Shown piece by piece: positions 25,800 through 43,337 of a DNA stretch of 64,000 nt. A program made the translations under genes and the position numbers. Below the pieces are notes generated by a model, which saw nothing but the letters and a program-made list of their open reading frames with translations, was not told the DNA's origin and did no database searches. Each line of letters begins with the position of its first letter. The first letter of the stretch is position 1. Origin of the DNA: an uncultured Glaciecola sp. (lineage in GTDB: Bacteria > Pseudomonadota > Gammaproteobacteria > Enterobacterales > Alteromonadaceae); the NCBI GenBank assembly GCA_947496235.1, contig CANMCE010000001.1, positions 372,001 through 436,000 on the forward strand. The letters are read 5' to 3'.

Positions 25800-27613
25800 G
25801 TACAGAAGTTGAATTTAAACCAGTCATTTTGGCAGTTGACGATGATCCTACGAATATCAACGTCATTGTGAGTCACTTGTCTCCACTCAACCCTAAATTT
25901 TTAATCGCTAATAGCGGTAAGTCAGCATTAGACATATTGGCTAAACAGCAACCTGATCTCATCATTTTAGATATCAATATGCCTGATATTACTGGCATAG
26001 ATGTTTGCAGAAAAATTAAGTCTGATACACTCAATCAAGAGACCCCCGTACTTTTCCTTACCAGTAGCGTTAATGATATTTCTGAAGCCTTTGATGTAGG
26101 TGGTGTTGATTACATATTAAAACCGGTAAAAGCTGAAGAACTTCTTGCCCGTGTAACAACGCATTTGCGTCTCAATCGTTTGGTCAAATCCCTTGACGAA
26201 GCCAATACATTGCTCGAGGGCGTAAATGAAAGCTTAGAAATCAAAGTTCAACAACGAACTATCGAACTGGTTACAGCGAATAAAAATCTAAGACGAGAAA
26301 TAGATGAAAGGCGTCGTCTTCAGGACAAGCTGTCTTATCTATCAAATTATGACTTTGTGACCCGAATGTACAATCGCACATCAATGGAACACGAGCTCAA
26401 ATCCAGATTAGACTTAATGATGACCTCAGATGCCATAGAGGCTCGTTGGTATCTGTTTTTTATAGATCTAGACCAGTTTAAAGTTGTCAATAACAGTTGT
26501 GGCCATGTTGCTGGGGATGAACTATTAAGGCAAATTGCTGAAATTCTAAGAGATTTATATACCGATGATTATATTTGTGCGCGTATGGGTGGGGACGAAT
26601 TTGCCATCCTTCTGCAATCCGTTAACCTTGAAGACGCGATTAAAAAAGCACACATTGTGAAAAATGCGATCGAGGCCCACAAGTTTGAATGGAATAACGA
26701 AATATTCAGACACACCATTAGTATTGCGTTGGTTGAACTCGATGAAAGTGTAGATTCCGTTTCCCATTTACTCAGTATCGCTGAACGAACCTGTTTTGAA
26801 AGTAAACGCAAAGGTGGTGGGGAAATATCGATTTATAATCACACAAAAGAATACATAGATAAGTCGCAGCAACAATTAAAGGTCATTCCAATTTTGCATC
26901 ACGCATTAGAAAATGACCAATTCACCCTCTTTTATCAGCGAATAATTCCGTTAAACGAAGAGCATCCTTACAAAATAGAGGTTTTACTGCGCTTAGTTGA
27001 TAACAGTGGCAAGGTAAAACCACCTAGCCACTTCATACCCATTGCAGAACGCTATCATTTAATTACTGAAATCGATAAATGGGTAATCAATAAAACCCTT
27101 GAACAAATGAAAAATTTGCCTGAAGACTTGCATGTGTCGATTAATTTGTCAGGTGAGTTTATTGGAAAGAGTAACTCAGCAGAATTAATTAAATCTATGT
27201 TGAGCCAATCACAAATAGCACCACAACGCATCTGTTTTGAAATTACAGAAACATCAGCTATATCCAATGTTGAAGCAACCAATGCTTTAATTTCAGAGCT
27301 GAAAGAAATTGGTGTCCAATTCTCATTAGACGACTTCGGTACTGGTACATCGTCCTATGAATACTTAAAACAACTTCCTATCGATTTTGTCAAAATTGAC
27401 GGTATTTTTGTTAGAGATATTGAGAACGACGAAATAAATCGTAAGATGGTAGAATCTATTCTTGGCATTGCCGTCGCTAAACAAGTCAGAGTTATCGCGG
27501 AATGTGTTGAAACCCCAGAAGCCCTTGCGATATTGCAAGAAATGCAATTGGATTATTATCAAGGGTATCTAGCGCATAAACCTGAGCCTCTAGCTAAGTT
27601 ATTTGAGAAATAG
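25796..27613 (+). CDS. Response regulator with REC-GGDEF-EAL domains
   Basis: A 605-residue c-di-GMP turnover regulator. The receiver (about 10-125) has the acidic pair VDDD and phosphoacceptor Asp in LDINMPD (about residue 61). A coiled coil at about 135-185 leads to GGDEF (RMGGDEF intact at about 264, so cyclase activity is possible) and then an EAL domain with EVLLR (the catalytic Glu kept), the DDFGTGTSSYEYL loop and KIDGIFV. Both catalytic sites look complete. The ATG overlaps the kinase stop codon (ATGA), so it is almost certainly the kinase's cognate output and co-translated with it. Confidence 0.9.
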   Translation: MSTEVEFKPVILAVDDDPTNINVIVSHLSPLNPKFLIANSGKSALDILAKQQPDLIILDINMPDITGIDVCRKIKSDTLNQETPVLFLTSSVNDISEAFDVGGVDYILKPVKAEELLARVTTHLRLNRLVKSLDEANTLLEGVNESLEIKVQQRTIELVTANKNLRREIDERRRLQDKLSYLSNYDFVTRMYNRTSMEHELKSRLDLMMTSDAIEARWYLFFIDLDQFKVVNNSCGHVAGDELLRQIAEILRDLYTDDYICARMGGDEFAILLQSVNLEDAIKKAHIVKNAIEAHKFEWNNEIFRHTISIALVELDESVDSVSHLLSIAERTCFESKRKGGGEISIYNHTKEYIDKSQQQLKVIPILHHALENDQFTLFYQRIIPLNEEHPYKIEVLLRLVDNSGKVKPPSHFIPIAERYHLITEIDKWVINKTLEQMKNLPEDLHVSINLSGEFIGKSNSAELIKSMLSQSQIAPQRICFEITETSAISNVEATNALISELKEIGVQFSLDDFGTGTSSYEYLKQLPIDFVKIDGIFVRDIENDEINRKMVESILGIAVAKQVRVIAECVETPEALAILQEMQLDYYQGYLAHKPEPLAKLFEK

Positions 27614-36242: not shown

Positions 36243-36319
36243 TGGTCGGTGTGAGAGGATTTGAACCTCCGACCCCTGACACCCCATGACAGTGCGCTAC
36301 CAAGCTGCGCCACACACCG
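36243..36319 (-). tRNA. proL: tRNA-Pro (anticodon GGG)
   Basis: A 77-nt cloverleaf on the - strand. The acceptor CGGTGTG pairs with CACACCG before A and the encoded CCA end. The D arm is GCGC/GCGC with AGCTTGGTA, the anticodon stem is CTGTC/GTCAG with loop ATGGGGT (anticodon GGG), and the T arm is GTCGGAGGTTCAAATCC. The T-T mismatch in the anticodon stem also occurs, as I remember it, in E. coli proL. It reads CCC and CCU proline codons. Confidence 0.95.
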
Positions 36320-37825: not shown

Positions 37826-40800
37826 TTAACCTGTAATGCGCTTATGTAATTCCTGAACGGATTGTACATTACGTTTCGCGTCAGCAGCACTTGCTTTTAA
37901 CGTAGCGAATGCGGCATTCAGCGTTGTCGTATAAGGCACTTTATTCAACAAAGCTTCGCGGCGAATATAGACTGAATCAGTTATCGCCTGACGTCCTTCA
38001 GTTGTATTTACTACATAACAGTATTCACTGTTTTTGATAGCATCTACAATATTAGGACGACCTTCTGATACCTTATTTACTTCTTTGCAATCGATACCTG
38101 CGATTTCAAGAGCTTCGGCAGTGCCACGGGTTGCTTCGATAACAAAACCACTTTCCAGTAACTGTTTAGCTAAATCAACAATTCGCTTCTTATCATTATT
38201 TCGAACAGACAACAGAACTTTACCGGCTTCAGGTAAAGGTGCAGAAGCACCTAGGTTTGCTTTCGCATAGGCCTCTTCAAATGTCTCCCCGACGCCCATA
38301 ACTTCGCCTGTAGAACGCATCTCAGGACCAAGTAAAGGATCAACGCCTTGGAATTTAGCAAAAGGTAACACCACTTCTTTGACTGAGAAAAACGGCGGAA
38401 TGACTTCTTGGGTTACACCCTGCTCTTTCAACGATTTATTCACCATTGTTCGAGCTGCAACCTTGGCTAAAGGAATACCCGTCGCTTTAGATACAAAAGG
38501 AACAGTTCGAGCAGCCCTTGGGTTTACCTCAATCAAATAAACTTCATTGTCTTTAATTGCAAATTGGGTATTCATTAGGCCTTTCACACCTAACTCAAGT
38601 GCCATTTCTTTTACCTGAGTACGCATAACGTCCTGAATATCTTTATTCAATGAATAAGGAGGTAAACTACAAGCAGAATCACCAGAGTGTACGCCAGCTT
38701 GTTCAATATGTTCCATGATCCCGCCGATCACTACGTCGGTACCGTCGCAAATGGCGTCAATATCAACTTCTACTGCGTCATCAAGGAATCTATCTAACAA
38801 TACAGGCGCTTCGTTTGACACCTTCACCGCTTCATTTAGGTAGCGTTTTAAGTCTTTGAGGTCATACACAATTTCCATTGCTCGACCACCTAGAACATAA
38901 GAAGGTCGCACTACCAGTGGAAAACCAATTTCTTTTGCCTTTTCTAGTGCTTGTTCCATATTGCTCACAGTCGCATTAGCAGGTTGTTTCAAACCAAGCT
39001 TTTGCACCATTTTTTGAAAGCGTTCACGATCTTCTGCCATATCGATAGAATCTGGTGAAGTACCTATGATAGGTACGCCGTTTTTCTCTAGATCTCTAGC
39101 TAGTTTAAGTGGTGTTTGACCACCATATTGCACAATGACGCCCGTCGGTTTTTCAACTCGAACTATCTCTAATACATCTTCTAATGTAACAGGCTCAAAA
39201 TACAATCTATCTGACGTATCATAGTCGGTGGAAACAGTTTCAGGGTTACAGTTCACCATGATAGTTTCGTAACCATCTTCACGCATCGCCAGTGCCGCGT
39301 GTACGCAGCAATAATCAAACTCAATACCTTGACCAATTCGATTAGGGCCACCGCCAAGTACCATGATTTTTTTCTTGTTAGAGGGCGCAGCTTCACACTC
39401 TTCGTCGTAGCAAGAATACATATAAGCAGTTGAGGTAGAAAACTCTGCAGCACAGGTATCAACCCGTTTAAATACCGGCAGAACATCAAGCTTTGTTCTT
39501 TGTTCACGAACATTTGTTTCACTGGTATTAGTTAAAGTCGCTAAGCGGGCATCAGAAAAACCTTTACGTTTTAAATTTCGCATTAGGTTTTCGTCAATGC
39601 CAGTTAGCCCAACCCTGGACGACAATTTTTCCAGCTCAATGATTTCTTCGATTTGCACTAGGAACCAGCGATCAATATTGGTAAGTCTAAACACTTCTTC
39701 AATGCTCATACCTAATCTAAATGCATCGCCAATGTAGAAAATACGTTCAGCGCCAGGTTCTCTTAATTCATAAATTATTTTGCTTTGTGCTTCAGGGTCG
39801 TCAAGGTCAATGATGGGATCAAAGCCTGACACTCCAGTTTCTAGCCCTCGAAGTGCTTTTTGCAAAGATTCCTGCTGATTACGACCAATGGCCATAACCT
39901 CACCAACAGATTTCATTTGAGTAGTTAATCTATCGTTTGCGCCGGCGAACTTTTCGAAGTTAAAGCGTGGTATTTTAGTCACAACATAATCGATAGAAGG
40001 CTCAAACGAAGCTGGCGTTAATCCGCCGGTAATGTCGTTATCAAGTTCATCAAGGGTAAAGCCTACCGCTAGTTTTGCTGCAATTTTGGCGATTGGGAAG
40101 CCGGTAGCTTTAGACGCTAAAGCAGATGAGCGAGAAACCCTTGGGTTCATCTCAATGATGACAAGGCGTCCTGTTTTAGGATCCACACCAAATTGCACAT
40201 TAGACCCACCGGTTTCAACACCGATTTCACGTAGTACTGCCATAGCGGCATTACGCATAATCTGGAATTCTTTGTCGGTTAATGTTTGCGCTGGCGCTAC
40301 GGTAATTGAGTCACCAGTATGAACGCCCATGGCATCGATATTTTCAATAGTACAAACGATAATACAGTTATCCGCTTTATCGCGAACCACTTCCATTTCG
40401 TACTCTTTCCAACCAATTAAGGATTCGTCAATTAACAATTCATTGGTGGGAGATAAATCTAGGCCTCTGGCACAGATTTCATTAAATTCTTCGATATTGT
40501 AAGCAATACCACCACCTGAGCCGCCCATGGTGAAAGACGGGCGAATGATACAGGGAAAACCAATGCGCGATAAAACGTCATGAGCCTGTTCCATATCGTG
40601 AGCTATCTCAGCTCTTGGACATTCCAATCCGATTGATTTCATGGCTTTGTCGAATCTTTCGCGGTCTTCAGCTTTATCTATTGCGTCAGCTGTAGCACCT
40701 ATTAGTTCAACGTTAAATTCATCTAAAACACCATGCTTATTCAAGTCTAGAGCACAGTTAAGCGCAGTTTGTCCACCCATGGTAGGAAGGATGGCGTCTG

Positions 40801-41047
40801 GCTTTTCTTTAGCAATGATATTTCTGACCACTTCCCACTGAATTGGCTCGATATAAGTAGCGTCGGCCATTTCAGGATCTGTCATGATAGTTGCAGGGTT
40901 CGAGTTAACCAAAATAACTCGATAGCCTTCTTCTCTTAACGCTTTACAAGCTTGAGCACCTGAATAATCGAACTCACAGGCCTGGCCTATTACAATAGGA
41001 CCAGCGCCTAAAATCAAAATACTTTTGATGTCGGTACGTTTTGGCAT
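37826..41047 (-). CDS. carB: Carbamoyl-phosphate synthase large subunit
   Basis: A 1073-residue synthase subunit that makes carbamoyl phosphate from bicarbonate, ammonia (channelled from CarA) and two ATP, feeding pyrimidine and arginine synthesis. Two homologous ATP-grasp halves are visible, the first beginning [23 protein letters not shown] and the second near residue 555 with [24 protein letters not shown]-like allosteric C-terminal domain begins about residue 935. The length equals E. coli CarB. It follows carA after 9 bp in the same transcript. Confidence 0.98.
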
Positions 41048-41056
41048 TCTTTCTTC

Positions 41057-42208
41057 CTATTGCTTAGATTGGGTAATTAAATCGATAAAATGATCAAATA
41101 AATCTGCAGCTTCATGGGGTCCAGGGCTTGCTTCTGGGTGTCCTTGGAAACTGAACGCTGGTCTGTCAGTAAATTCAATACCTTGTAGAGAATTATCAAA
41201 TAAACTCACGTGGGTTACCTGTATGTTGTCAGGTAATGATGCTTGATCCGCGGCAAATCCATGGTTTTGGCTGGTGATCATAACTTTATTCGATCTCAGG
41301 TCTTTCACTGGGTGGTTTGCCCCGTGGTGACCAAATTTCATCTTAATTGTTTTAGCTCCTGCGGCTAACGCTAGTAGCTGATGGCCTAAACAAATACCAA
41401 ACACAGGAATTTTCTTTTCCAAAAACACTTTTATTGCGTCGATTGCGTAATCGCATGGCTCAGGGTCGCCAGGTCCGTTTGATAGGAAAACGCCGTCAGG
41501 ATTCATGGCTAATACTTCTTCTGCTGAGGTTTGCGCCGGTACTATAGTCAGTTTGCAGCCTCTGTCGACAAGCATTCTTAGAATGTTCTTTTTGGCACCG
41601 AAATCGTAAGCCACGACATTAAATTTATAGTCTTGAACATTTGTTGCGTGCCCAGAGCCTAGATTCCAAAGGCCATCAGACCAAGGGTGAGTGTCTTTAC
41701 AGCTTACGACTTTAGCGAGGTCCATCCCTTTAAGACCGGGGAAAGCTTTTGCTTTTTCTAAGGCTGCTTGAGTCGCTTCTTCGATATTATCAACATCTAG
41801 CTCAACTGTCATAATACAGCCGTTTTGCGCACCTTTGTCGCGAAGGATCCTAGTTAACCTTCGAGTATCTATGTCTGCAATACCTAAAATCTTATTCATT
41901 TTTAGATATTCTGAAAGTGATTGCTTGTTTCTAAAATTACTTGCAATTAAAGGTAAATCTCTAATGATGAGACCTTTTGCCCAAACTGTATCTGATTCAA
42001 CATCTTCTTCGTTGGTACCAGTATTGCCTATGTGAGGATAGGTAAGAGTAACAATTTGTTCGGCATAGGATGGATCTGTAAGAATTTCTTGATAACCTGT
42101 CATTGAAGTATTAAATACCACTTCACCAACAGAGTATCCGTGAGCACCGATTGCAGTTCCTTTAAATACAGAACCATCGGCGAGTACAAGCAGGGCAGAA
42201 ACAGCCAA
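41057..42208 (-). CDS. carA: Carbamoyl-phosphate synthase small subunit
   Basis: A 383-residue glutaminase subunit. The N-terminal CPSase domain ([31 protein letters not shown]) precedes a class I glutamine amidotransferase domain with nucleophile Cys in FGICLGHQL (about residue 271) and HPEASPGP with the His and Glu of the triad. The start is TTG at 42208, supported by a perfect AGGAGG six bases upstream; E. coli carA also starts with TTG. It is preceded by a 220-base leader that seems to carry an attenuator (see the leader ORF and hairpin). Confidence 0.98.
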
Positions 42209-42238
42209 GTCGACCTCCTGAAATGAGAGATAACTAAG

Positions 42239-42258
42239 AAAAACTTGCGTTAAGCAAG
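42239..42258 (-). terminator. Terminator-like hairpin in the carA leader (putative attenuator)
   Basis: On the - strand CTTGC (42258-42254), loop TTAAC, GCAAG (42248-42244), then TTTTT (42243-42239), about 30 bp before the carA TTG. The stem is short (5 bp) but the T5 run is immediate. The leader ORF stops inside the loop (TAA, 42252-42250), so a translating ribosome would block the stem. An upstream GCAAG (42325-42321) could pair with the 5' arm as an antiterminator. Confidence 0.5.
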
Positions 42259-42327
42259 AATTTCTATATTATTGTCCTCTTTCCTCGCAAAAAGAGGATA
42301 ACATGTCTCTACCAAAACACCTTGCAT
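42250..42327 (-). CDS. Putative 25-residue carAB leader peptide
   Basis: A small open frame starting with ATG at 42327 and preceded by AAAAAAGG four bases upstream, a good ribosome binding site. It encodes 25 residues (begins [13 protein letters not shown], ends EILA) and stops in the loop of the terminator-like hairpin before carA. Its middle contains the pyrimidine-rich RNA CCUCUUUUUG, which could be a UTP-sensitive pause as in pyrBI-type attenuation. No arginine-codon run is present (a single Arg codon), so pyrimidine control fits better than arginine control. Position, ribosome binding site and stop position are seen; expression and function are inference. Confidence 0.5.
42276..42297 (-). 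promoter_or_regulatory. Alternative hairpins inside the carA leader
   Basis: On the - strand CCTCTTT (42297-42291) can pair with AAAGAGG (42282-42276), or its CCTC with the nearer GAGG (42286-42283). These mutually exclusive stems lie in the middle of the leader ORF next to a U-rich tract, and could act as a pause hairpin. Confidence 0.35.
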
Positions 42328-42431
42328 GTTGCCTTTTTTCTTGATTGCAAGCCTTATTATTTAAGGATTCAATCCTCAATGACCACCAATCAAAACAAGC
42401 TGCAAGAATTTCTTTTTGGCAAATTCCGAGC

Positions 42432-42461
42432 ATTATATACAACAAATTAAACTAGGTCTAA
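42432..42461 (-). promoter_or_regulatory. Sigma-70 promoter for carAB
   Basis: On the - strand a perfect -10 box TATAAT (42437-42432) lies 18 bp after a weak -35 TTAGAC (42461-42456). Start would be near 42425, giving a leader of about 217 nt before carA. I saw no convincing ARG box in the leader. Confidence 0.65.
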
Positions 42462-42533
42462 CAGTTTTTAAATTGATTTTTAAATATGTAAAAACAAAGC
42501 TTTTATTACCATTATTAGACTTAAGCCCTAAAA

Positions 42534-43337
42534 TCACAACAATTCCAAAACATTCTGCATCGAAAACAGACCTTTTTCTTTACCTTTTAGCCATTGCGCT
42601 GCATGCAATGCGCCGTTGGCGAAGGTCAATCTACTCGAAGCTTTATGAGTAATTTCAAGGCGTTCCCCAAGCGTCGCAAACATGGCTGTATGCTCACCAA
42701 CAATGTCTCCTGCGCGTACTGTGGCAAAACCTATGGTTTCTCGTGATCTTTCTTCGGTAACACCTTCTCGGCCGTAAACCGCACATTGGTCTAGATTTCG
42801 ATCCAAAGCATCGGCAATTGACTGCCCTATTGCCATAGCTGTGCCCGATGGAGCATCTTTTTTAAATCTATGGTGGGCTTCGAGGATTTCGATATCTGCT
42901 GTGTCTCCCATGACTTTAGCAGCCGTTTTCACAAGATTCAGCATCAAATTAACGCCAACTGAATAGTTGGCAGCAAATACGACTGGGATATATTTTGCAG
43001 CCTCGTCAATCAAAGTTAGCTGTTCGGATGTAAGTCCTGTAGTACCAATAACTATTGGCGTTTTAGAATCTACGGCTAAGTGTAAATTCTGCTCTAATGC
43101 CTCAGGTAACGTAAAGTCAATGAGTACGTCAGCGTGTGTAATAATATCTTTTTTCAGTTCAACCACCTTGATATATTGCCGGCTAATTCCAGCTAATTCA
43201 CCTGCGTCCATTCCGATAAAGGGAGAATTTGACCTTACACTGGCAAATCCTAACGCGACAGATGAATGTGCATATGCGGCTTCGATAAGAACTCTACCCA
43301 TGCGACCATTTGCGCCTAAAATACCCACTTTTACCAT
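42534..43337 (-). CDS. dapB: 4-hydroxy-tetrahydrodipicolinate reductase
   Basis: A 267-residue NAD(P)H-dependent reductase of lysine and diaminopimelate synthesis. The N-terminal Rossmann motif is VGILGANGRMGR, and the substrate-binding/catalytic HHRFKKDAPSGTA contains the conserved His pair and Lys. IGTTGL and NYSVGVNLML are further family blocks. The ATG at 43337 is preferred to a TTG at 43364 because it begins exactly at the family start and has GGA upstream. It lies upstream of carAB in the same direction, separated by a 325-bp region that contains the carAB promoter and leader. Confidence 0.96.
   Translation of the reverse strand: MVKVGILGANGRMGRVLIEAAYAHSSVALGFASVRSNSPFIGMDAGELAGISRQYIKVVELKKDIITHADVLIDFTLPEALEQNLHLAVDSKTPIVIGTTGLTSEQLTLIDEAAKYIPVVFAANYSVGVNLMLNLVKTAAKVMGDTADIEILEAHHRFKKDAPSGTAMAIGQSIADALDRNLDQCAVYGREGVTEERSRETIGFATVRAGDIVGEHTAMFATLGERLEITHKASSRLTFANGALHAAQWLKGKEKGLFSMQNVLELL

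Follow-up and report, generated by a model that had tools for sequence, protein, structure and literature searches.

In E. coli, the pyrBI transcript begins AAUUUG, and its leader combines a leader peptide, PyrL, with a terminator. At B. subtilis pyrG and E. coli pyrC, events at the start site alter the folding of the 5' end. For E. coli carAB, UTP-sensitive reiterative transcription at P1 was described by Han and Turnbough in 1998, as given in PMC6245113. According to the available text of that source, the carP1 transcript starts GUUUGC and high UTP leads to abortive GUUUUn transcripts, breaking the T run abolishes the UTP control, and a starting A gives more stuttering than a starting G (PMC6245113). 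The same text places the stuttering control of carP1 at very low UTP, atypical of growing prototrophs, and describes it as weaker than that of pyrBI (PMC6245113). In Pseudomonas, attenuation was proposed in the carA 5' UTR, with a leader peptide in P. aeruginosa and the P32 transcript in P. syringae (PMC4997734), and the carA motif of Polynucleobacter (SRC-12-1) is a candidate riboswitch located before carA (PMC8632094).

We analysed the carAB leader in a 64,000-nucleotide stretch of DNA (the window) from a genome of 4.4 Mb. The genus sample comprised 13 species, the window's species (L003) included, hereafter the congeners. Two minus-strand genes, which we take to be carA (from the sequence, consistent with the E. 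coli carA annotation) and carB (from the sequence and the gene order), follow a neighbor that is presumably dapB, with its stop near 42534. The order dapB-carA-carB-greA, found here among the open reading frames of the window, is usual in gammaproteobacteria. Among the named loci compared, where records of the own or very near genomes may be missing, the closest CarA was that of Aliiglaciecola (79%). A first-pass annotation had placed a probable pyrBI-like attenuation leader that would sense pyrimidine supply, with a new leader-peptide gene, before carAB. Its promoter about 217 nt before carA, its 25-codon ORF with AAGG, the U-rich tract CCTCTTTTT and its hairpin are all there, on the minus strand between the dapB stop and the carA TTG at 42208. 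Table 1 lists these features together with those found in this analysis.

Table 1. Features of the carAB leader region, in positions of the window.
Feature	Position	Strand	Description
carAB promoter	42432..42460	-	-35 TAGACC 42460-42455; 17-nt spacer; -10 TATAAT 42437-42432
Probable start of the transcript, with the initially transcribed sequence AATTTGCC	42418..42425	-	Start inferred from the -10 box; predicted UTP-sensitive slippage on TTT
P1, 5' strand	42414..42423	-	Transcript start; may pair with 42317-42308; 10 bp predicted
P1, 3' strand	42308..42317	-	UUUUGGUAGA; GC[A/G]AAGA in many relatives
25-codon ORF first taken for a leader-peptide gene	42250..42327	-	ATG start, AAGG upstream; probably not a gene
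HpA	42271..42302	-	10-bp hairpin, GCGA loop; site of the intrinsic terminator in many relatives; no U tract here
HpB	42238..42264	-	Outer GAAA/UUUC and inner CUUGC/GCAAG stem; the hairpin first proposed as terminator
Ribosome-site hairpin	42213..42231	-	AUCUCU opposite GGAGGU of the Shine-Dalgarno; possible, not proven
carA	41057..42208	-	TTG start; carbamoyl-phosphate synthase small subunit
carB	37826..41047	-	From the ORF list

The promoter matched the consensus at 10 of the 12 positions of the -35 and -10 boxes, and from the position of the latter the carAB transcript probably begins AAUUUGCC. With the start placed in this way, the first transcribed bases of the non-template strand contain a run of at least three T, in AATTTG 6 nt after the -10 box; the promoter bears the sequence features of the UTP-sensitive mechanism, and stuttering would thus be expected. 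For the comparison with relatives, the best -10 box followed by AATTTGCCA was scored within at most 600 bases upstream of carA. The 228 carA loci gave 201 distinct upstream regions, from which exact duplicates alone had been removed, so related species are not independent. A score of at least 12 was reached by 163 of the 201 regions against 8.0 in shuffles, and a score of at least 14 by 123 against 0.2, which places the strong TATAAT promoter of the first-pass annotation beyond chance. The other 38 regions scored below 12, including that of E. coli because its -10 box is CAGAAT. No match at all was obtained for 20 regions (16 from named loci and 4 from the own family), which include Marinobacterium, Oceanobacter, Marinomonas, Microbulbifer, a betaproteobacterium, Klebsiella, and Enterobacter. 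The named members bearing the start include Alteromonas, Pseudoalteromonas, Vibrio, Photobacterium, Aeromonas, Xenorhabdus, and Proteus, and Colwellia has the variant ATTTTGTC; in one set of relatives that was read directly, nearly all had the same letters after the -10 box. In five family members without AATTTGCC (L172, L195, L196, L198, and L184), GATTTAYC stands at the same place, with the T run kept and the G lost, and a terminator-like hairpin was seen by eye directly before the Shine-Dalgarno.

The start was aligned in 159 regions with the 6-nt spacing, selected by T-A-T of the -10 box and TTTG, with no use of the -35 box. At positions outside the selection, TNGAC was conserved at -35 to -31 (T-GAC at 96, 91, 87, and 84%), and +9 to +14 were strongly A/T (A at 74, 88, 76, and 55%, then T at 83 and 71%). 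The starting AA was found in 96 and 87% of the regions; these A, as well as the C and A after TTTG, belonged to the score. Conservation reaches AAAATT, at +14, which is beyond the requirement of slippage, and it is partly dyad-symmetric. Both properties would suit a repressor binding to DNA, with AATTTGCCAAAAATT as its operator (inverted repeat AATTT-5-AAATT) and the match to the pyrBI start incidental. However, the dyad shows no compensatory change (where the second position is T, in 18 regions, 17 have T and not A on the opposite side), and the second arm of the window's own dyad is shifted, so that we consider an operator improbable. In the source genome, TANNAT-(5-7)-AATTTGCC occurred 7 times and the reversed pattern twice. 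TAGAAT-6-AATTTGCC was also present on the minus strand at 26529-26548 of the window (contig 398529-398548), and inspection of the own-genome region upstream of pyrB found no AATTTG start.

The mechanism first proposed for the leader was that of pyrBI, in which a ribosome on the 25-codon ORF, close to a polymerase at the U-rich tract, would block a terminator at 42258-42244. Its parts are present as described (ORF, AAGG, U tract, and a core CTTGC-TTAAC-GCAAG with the stop TAA in the loop and T5 after it), and the closest species, L004, has a frame of 25 codons that also stops in this loop, with no SD-like word. Nevertheless, an ORF ending in the HpB loop was found in 2 of the 13 congeners, namely the window's species and L004, a lack of conservation that the first-pass annotation had itself named as a refutation. 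Chance produces such frames readily: of 3000 dinucleotide shuffles of the window leader, 45% had an ATG-initiated ORF of 20 or more codons, and 17% had an ORF of that length that began with ATG, GTG, or TTG and carried an SD-like word. The 78-base frames of the window and L004 show 17 differences, distributed 6/5/6 over the three codon positions, and 32% of random changes of the same kind that kept the frame open gave an equal or better protein score (P 0.32). As 17 differences are few, this comparison is a weak test, and within that limit the divergence resembles that of non-coding sequence. In 45 long terminator-bearing leaders of relatives, with many short frames, no recurring ORF with a Shine-Dalgarno was seen by eye; frames ending VNGM-stop occur in 10 of the 45, with differing starts, and the letters concerned form the terminator arm itself.

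As a terminator, HpB is weak. The 5-bp stem, already named as the weakest point, has -4.2 kcal/mol; with the outer GAAA/UUUC pairs the hairpin reaches -8.4 kcal/mol, and T5 then lies inside it. Among the 13 congeners, T5 follows HpB in the window's species only, and L004 and L006 have 5 T in 8. We therefore regard the pyrBI-like mechanism as very improbable, and the 25-codon ORF is probably not a real gene, given its chance-level occurrence and the lack of a coding signature.

The leader RNA itself, about 215-217 nt long, folds more stably in the window than shuffled sequences (z -3.57; 0/200), with z ranging from -0.8 to -5.6 across the 13 congeners. It contains the hairpin HpA, which, like the conserved start AATTTGCC, was absent from the first-pass annotation and whose 5' arm is the U-rich tract. 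The congeners share the position of HpA and HpB, whereas the arms differ in sequence. When arms were swapped among the 13 congeners, the energy of HpA changed from -10.1 kcal/mol (own arms) to -5.0 kcal/mol (swapped arms) and that of HpB from -12.2 to -6.9 kcal/mol, each with 0/20000 permutations. Within the six-species window subclade (L003-L007 and L027, defined by leader likeness, not by a tree), the swap gave p 0.011 for HpA and p 0.0043 for HpB, whereas mismatched control pairs gave p 0.16 to 0.94. HpB is weak in L005 (-3.0 kcal/mol).

The covariation of the leader structure across the 13 congeners points in the same direction, with a score of 0.457 against 0.220 in shuffles and 0/500 shuffles reaching it. 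In the MAFFT alignment of these species, 81.1% of the cells were paired, against 65.2% in shuffles and 45.5-54.1% with the partner slid, and two-sided changes were found in 11 of the 11 pairs of HpA and 9 of the 13 pairs of HpB. On the plain alignment, RNAalifold gave -7.74 kcal/mol with a covariation part of -1.77 and a two-sided change in 11 of 17 pairs; it folded HpA and the ribosome-site hairpin and did not predict HpB; in some rows, the HpB arms stand one column apart in the MAFFT alignment. These comparisons of sequences show a covarying RNA in which HpA and HpB are kept by compensatory change. Additionally, a 5'-domain stem around the loop AAGAAAA was seen by eye in L014, L018, L019, L026, L028, and L029, and its arms seem to covary in L018 and L026.

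Terminators were counted in 173 leaders with a start score of at least 11 (20 regions had no match and 8 a lower score), a start-based choice that may favor some clades. By one rule, an intrinsic terminator was found in 101 of the 173 (21.5 in shuffles). Among those 140 nt or longer the count was 66 of 80 (15.0 in shuffles), and among the shorter ones 35 of 93 (6.5 in shuffles). The same rule found none in the window's species, where HpB fails it; a simpler scan lists HpB, as two terminator-like sites that are both strands of one hairpin, against 0.3 in shuffles. At least 5 T within the 8 bases after HpA occur in 7 of the 13 congeners (L008, L014, L018, L019, L026, L028, and L029), whereas L003-L007 have 2 or 3 T in 8 and the T run of L027 begins 5 bases later. 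Two relatives have carA leaders of far greater length: that of L016 measures 294 nt, with its terminator 198 nt before carA, and that of L035 284 nt.

The three hairpins (HpA, HpB, and the one at the ribosome site) were combined in a covariance model built from the 13 congeners. It scored the window leader, itself a training sequence, at 80 bits, and its only other match in the window was weak (E 1.3). The search set comprised 88 non-genus carA loci chosen for spread, among which the leaders of L033 and L065 are identical. At E <= 1 the model matched 35 places: 34 end where carA starts, and a single one, in L017, lies away from it; 16 matches had E <= 0.01. In 12 of these 16 best matches, a C-G-rich terminator followed by a U run (-7.9 to -17.0 kcal/mol) lies at HpA, a position established base by base in four leaders and by distance from carA in the others. 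The terminators of L177 and L230 are weaker and A-T-rich, and L188 and L012 have none by rule. In 147 whole genomes of the family, under stricter filters, 10 were matched at E <= 0.01, each at one place directly before carA (six in the own genus and four in other genera, 5 of 52 genera in total), and 137 had no match. Elsewhere in the source genome, a stretch of about 40 bp matches the leader (83%, E 9.5e-4); it falls inside a 283-codon ORF, presumably rpoH-like, and the match was taken as chance.

An attenuator is therefore well supported in the relatives, at HpA, upstream of the hairpin first proposed; where attenuation acts, it sits at HpA with no conserved peptide. Judged from its sequence, the window's species has a terminator signal that is gone or very weak, and both hairpins are still kept. 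Peptide-free attenuation could still be active here, with HpA or HpB terminating some of the transcripts and the balance set by the 5' domain or by a protein. The terminators at HpA in many relatives, the T5 behind HpB in the window's species, and GC[A/G]AAGA, a conserved site before HpA, agree with such a mechanism; however, L003-L007 lack a U tract after HpA, T5 after HpB is confined to L003, and no antiterminator pairing was seen by eye in the terminator class. We give this possibility a modest chance at most. The hairpin of the first-pass annotation is conserved and its T5 is not; it stands as an RNA structure, not as a strong terminator.

The whole window, searched against Rfam at the gathering score, returned only a tRNA (36246-36319), leaving the leader unmatched. 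The loci of 12 relatives returned nothing at that score, and a further search gave only snoRNA matches below threshold (E 2.6 and 4.7). The open-licence PMC matches listed contained no description of this leader, nor of the conserved start in organisms other than E. coli; in the main text of PMC2965389, carA occurs only as part of an author name in the references.

At its 5' end, the leader may be closed by P1, a possible predicted helix between the beginning of the transcript and a site about 110 nt downstream. By reading of the folds, P1 is in the minimum-energy fold of 8 of the 13 congeners, and a longer fold of the window pairs the 5' end differently. The arm swap gave p = 0.001 over the 13 species and 0.12 within the window subclade. 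Family-wide, tested on 109 non-redundant leaders of 163, the 5'-end pairing reached p <= 0.05 in 27 of 109, with a mean z of -0.72; the own 5' end was outpaired by 42% of the foreign ones on average. In 14 Colwellia-type leaders (L020, L021, L055, L058, L064, L173, L176, L182, L189, L212, L216, L218, L227, and L228; three named Colwellia), the 5' arm of an intrinsic terminator comes from the transcript's own start: early bases TGTCAAAAATT, beginning at about base 5, pair with TTTTTGGCA further on, which has T6 behind it. Read jointly with this arrangement, AAUUUGCC might double as a slippage site and, once transcribed, as one strand of P1, the helix before the attenuator hairpin (in the 14 leaders, as the terminator's 5' arm), coupling two nucleotide sensors. 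We hold this reading to be quite unlikely; if it is true, the leader would fold according to how many U are added, or to exactly where the transcript starts, and initiation control would be joined to attenuation without a peptide.

At the other end, a possible hairpin is predicted to cover the carA Shine-Dalgarno. Its pairs are kept, with two-sided changes in 0 of 6 and likewise in none on an alignment fitted to, and so favoring, its own structure, and the swap test gave no signal (p 0.75-0.83). A leader that binds a metabolite or a protein, like a riboswitch, could control carA translation through this hairpin: a covarying multi-hairpin RNA adjoins the ribosome site, the anti-Shine-Dalgarno segment is conserved in relatives, and the Polynucleobacter candidate also precedes carA (PMC8632094). 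Against this, the hairpin arms vary freely, few unpaired letters are invariant in the modelled part, and the ribosome-site hairpin has neither the two-sided changes nor the swap signal, which makes such a switch a distinctly unlikely explanation.

The leader could also be passive, serving stability or ribosome access, with the control of carAB left to proteins that act at the promoter, ArgR or others. An ArgR gene was found in the source genome, and carAB is described as a core ArgR target in gammaproteobacteria (PMC5343134). However, 78 ARG-box-like sites were found in the window against 94.6 expected, which, with one simple consensus and up to 3 mismatches, is weak evidence, and the two sites near carA (42356-42373 and 42467-42484) each have 3 mismatches to that consensus. 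We regard control of this type as unlikely.

The most likely explanation, to which we give slightly better than even credence, is UTP-sensed initiation combined with a peptide-free folded leader related to the attenuator of the relatives. RNA polymerase would start the carAB transcript at AAUUUGCC. On the model of E. coli carAB P1 and pyrBI, the nascent AAUUU would slip on the T3 run at high UTP and the transcript would be aborted, whereas at low UTP the polymerase would escape into carAB. The UTP control at this promoter may be small, because the stuttering control of carP1 is weaker than that of pyrBI and acts at very low UTP. The escaped transcript would carry the leader of about 215 nt, with a 5' domain perhaps closed by P1, then HpA, HpB, and possibly the hairpin covering the Shine-Dalgarno. 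Since HpA is an intrinsic terminator in many relatives, the leader probably descends from a peptide-free attenuator; since HpA has no U tract here, any regulation by the leader in the window's species would most likely be weak or act through access to the carA ribosome site. The terminator signal being gone or very weak with the hairpins kept, we put UTP-sensitive initiation first and the leader RNA second, as an unproven layer that perhaps works through the ribosome-site hairpin. The idea of a regulatory carAB leader sensing pyrimidine supply thus survives in outline, with UTP as the most likely signal, whereas its peptide mechanism fails where testable.

Relatives in Alteromonas, Vibrio, Aeromonas, and Proteus share this kind of start before carA, which suggests an old, selected control. 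The covarying leader, terminator-bearing in many relatives and unmatched in Rfam, is a candidate regulatory RNA, and its target would be the enzyme that feeds both arginine and pyrimidines.

Compared with known systems, the leader shares with the Polynucleobacter carA motif a structured RNA right before carA, near the ribosome site; by its description, however, that motif is one imperfect extended hairpin with little covariation, from betaproteobacteria, whereas here two covarying hairpins and further elements are found (PMC8632094). With the Pseudomonas carA leaders, as far as their description goes, it shares a proposed 5' UTR attenuation and a short 5' RNA, whereas the peptide reported for P. 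aeruginosa has no supported counterpart here (PMC4997734). The likeness to E. coli pyrBI (TATAATGCCGGACAATTTGCC: TATAAT-7 nt-AATTTGCC) lies in TATAAT followed by AATTTGCC, a start that the first-pass annotation did not mention, and not in the layout of leader peptide and terminator on which it had relied: the window's species has neither a conserved leader peptide nor a strong terminator, the spacing is 6 nt here and 7 there, and slippage here is predicted from sequence. Against E. coli carAB P1 (CAGAATGCCGCCGTTTGCC: CAGAAT-6 nt-GTTTGCC), the transcript starts AAUUUG here and GUUUG there, the leader is structured and about 217 nt long here and about 100 nt there (by eye), and no ARG boxes were recognised here with the simple consensus. 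Nevertheless, both promoters serve the same operon from between dapB and carA, both have the 6-nt spacing, and in both T3 comes right after the start and is followed by GCC.
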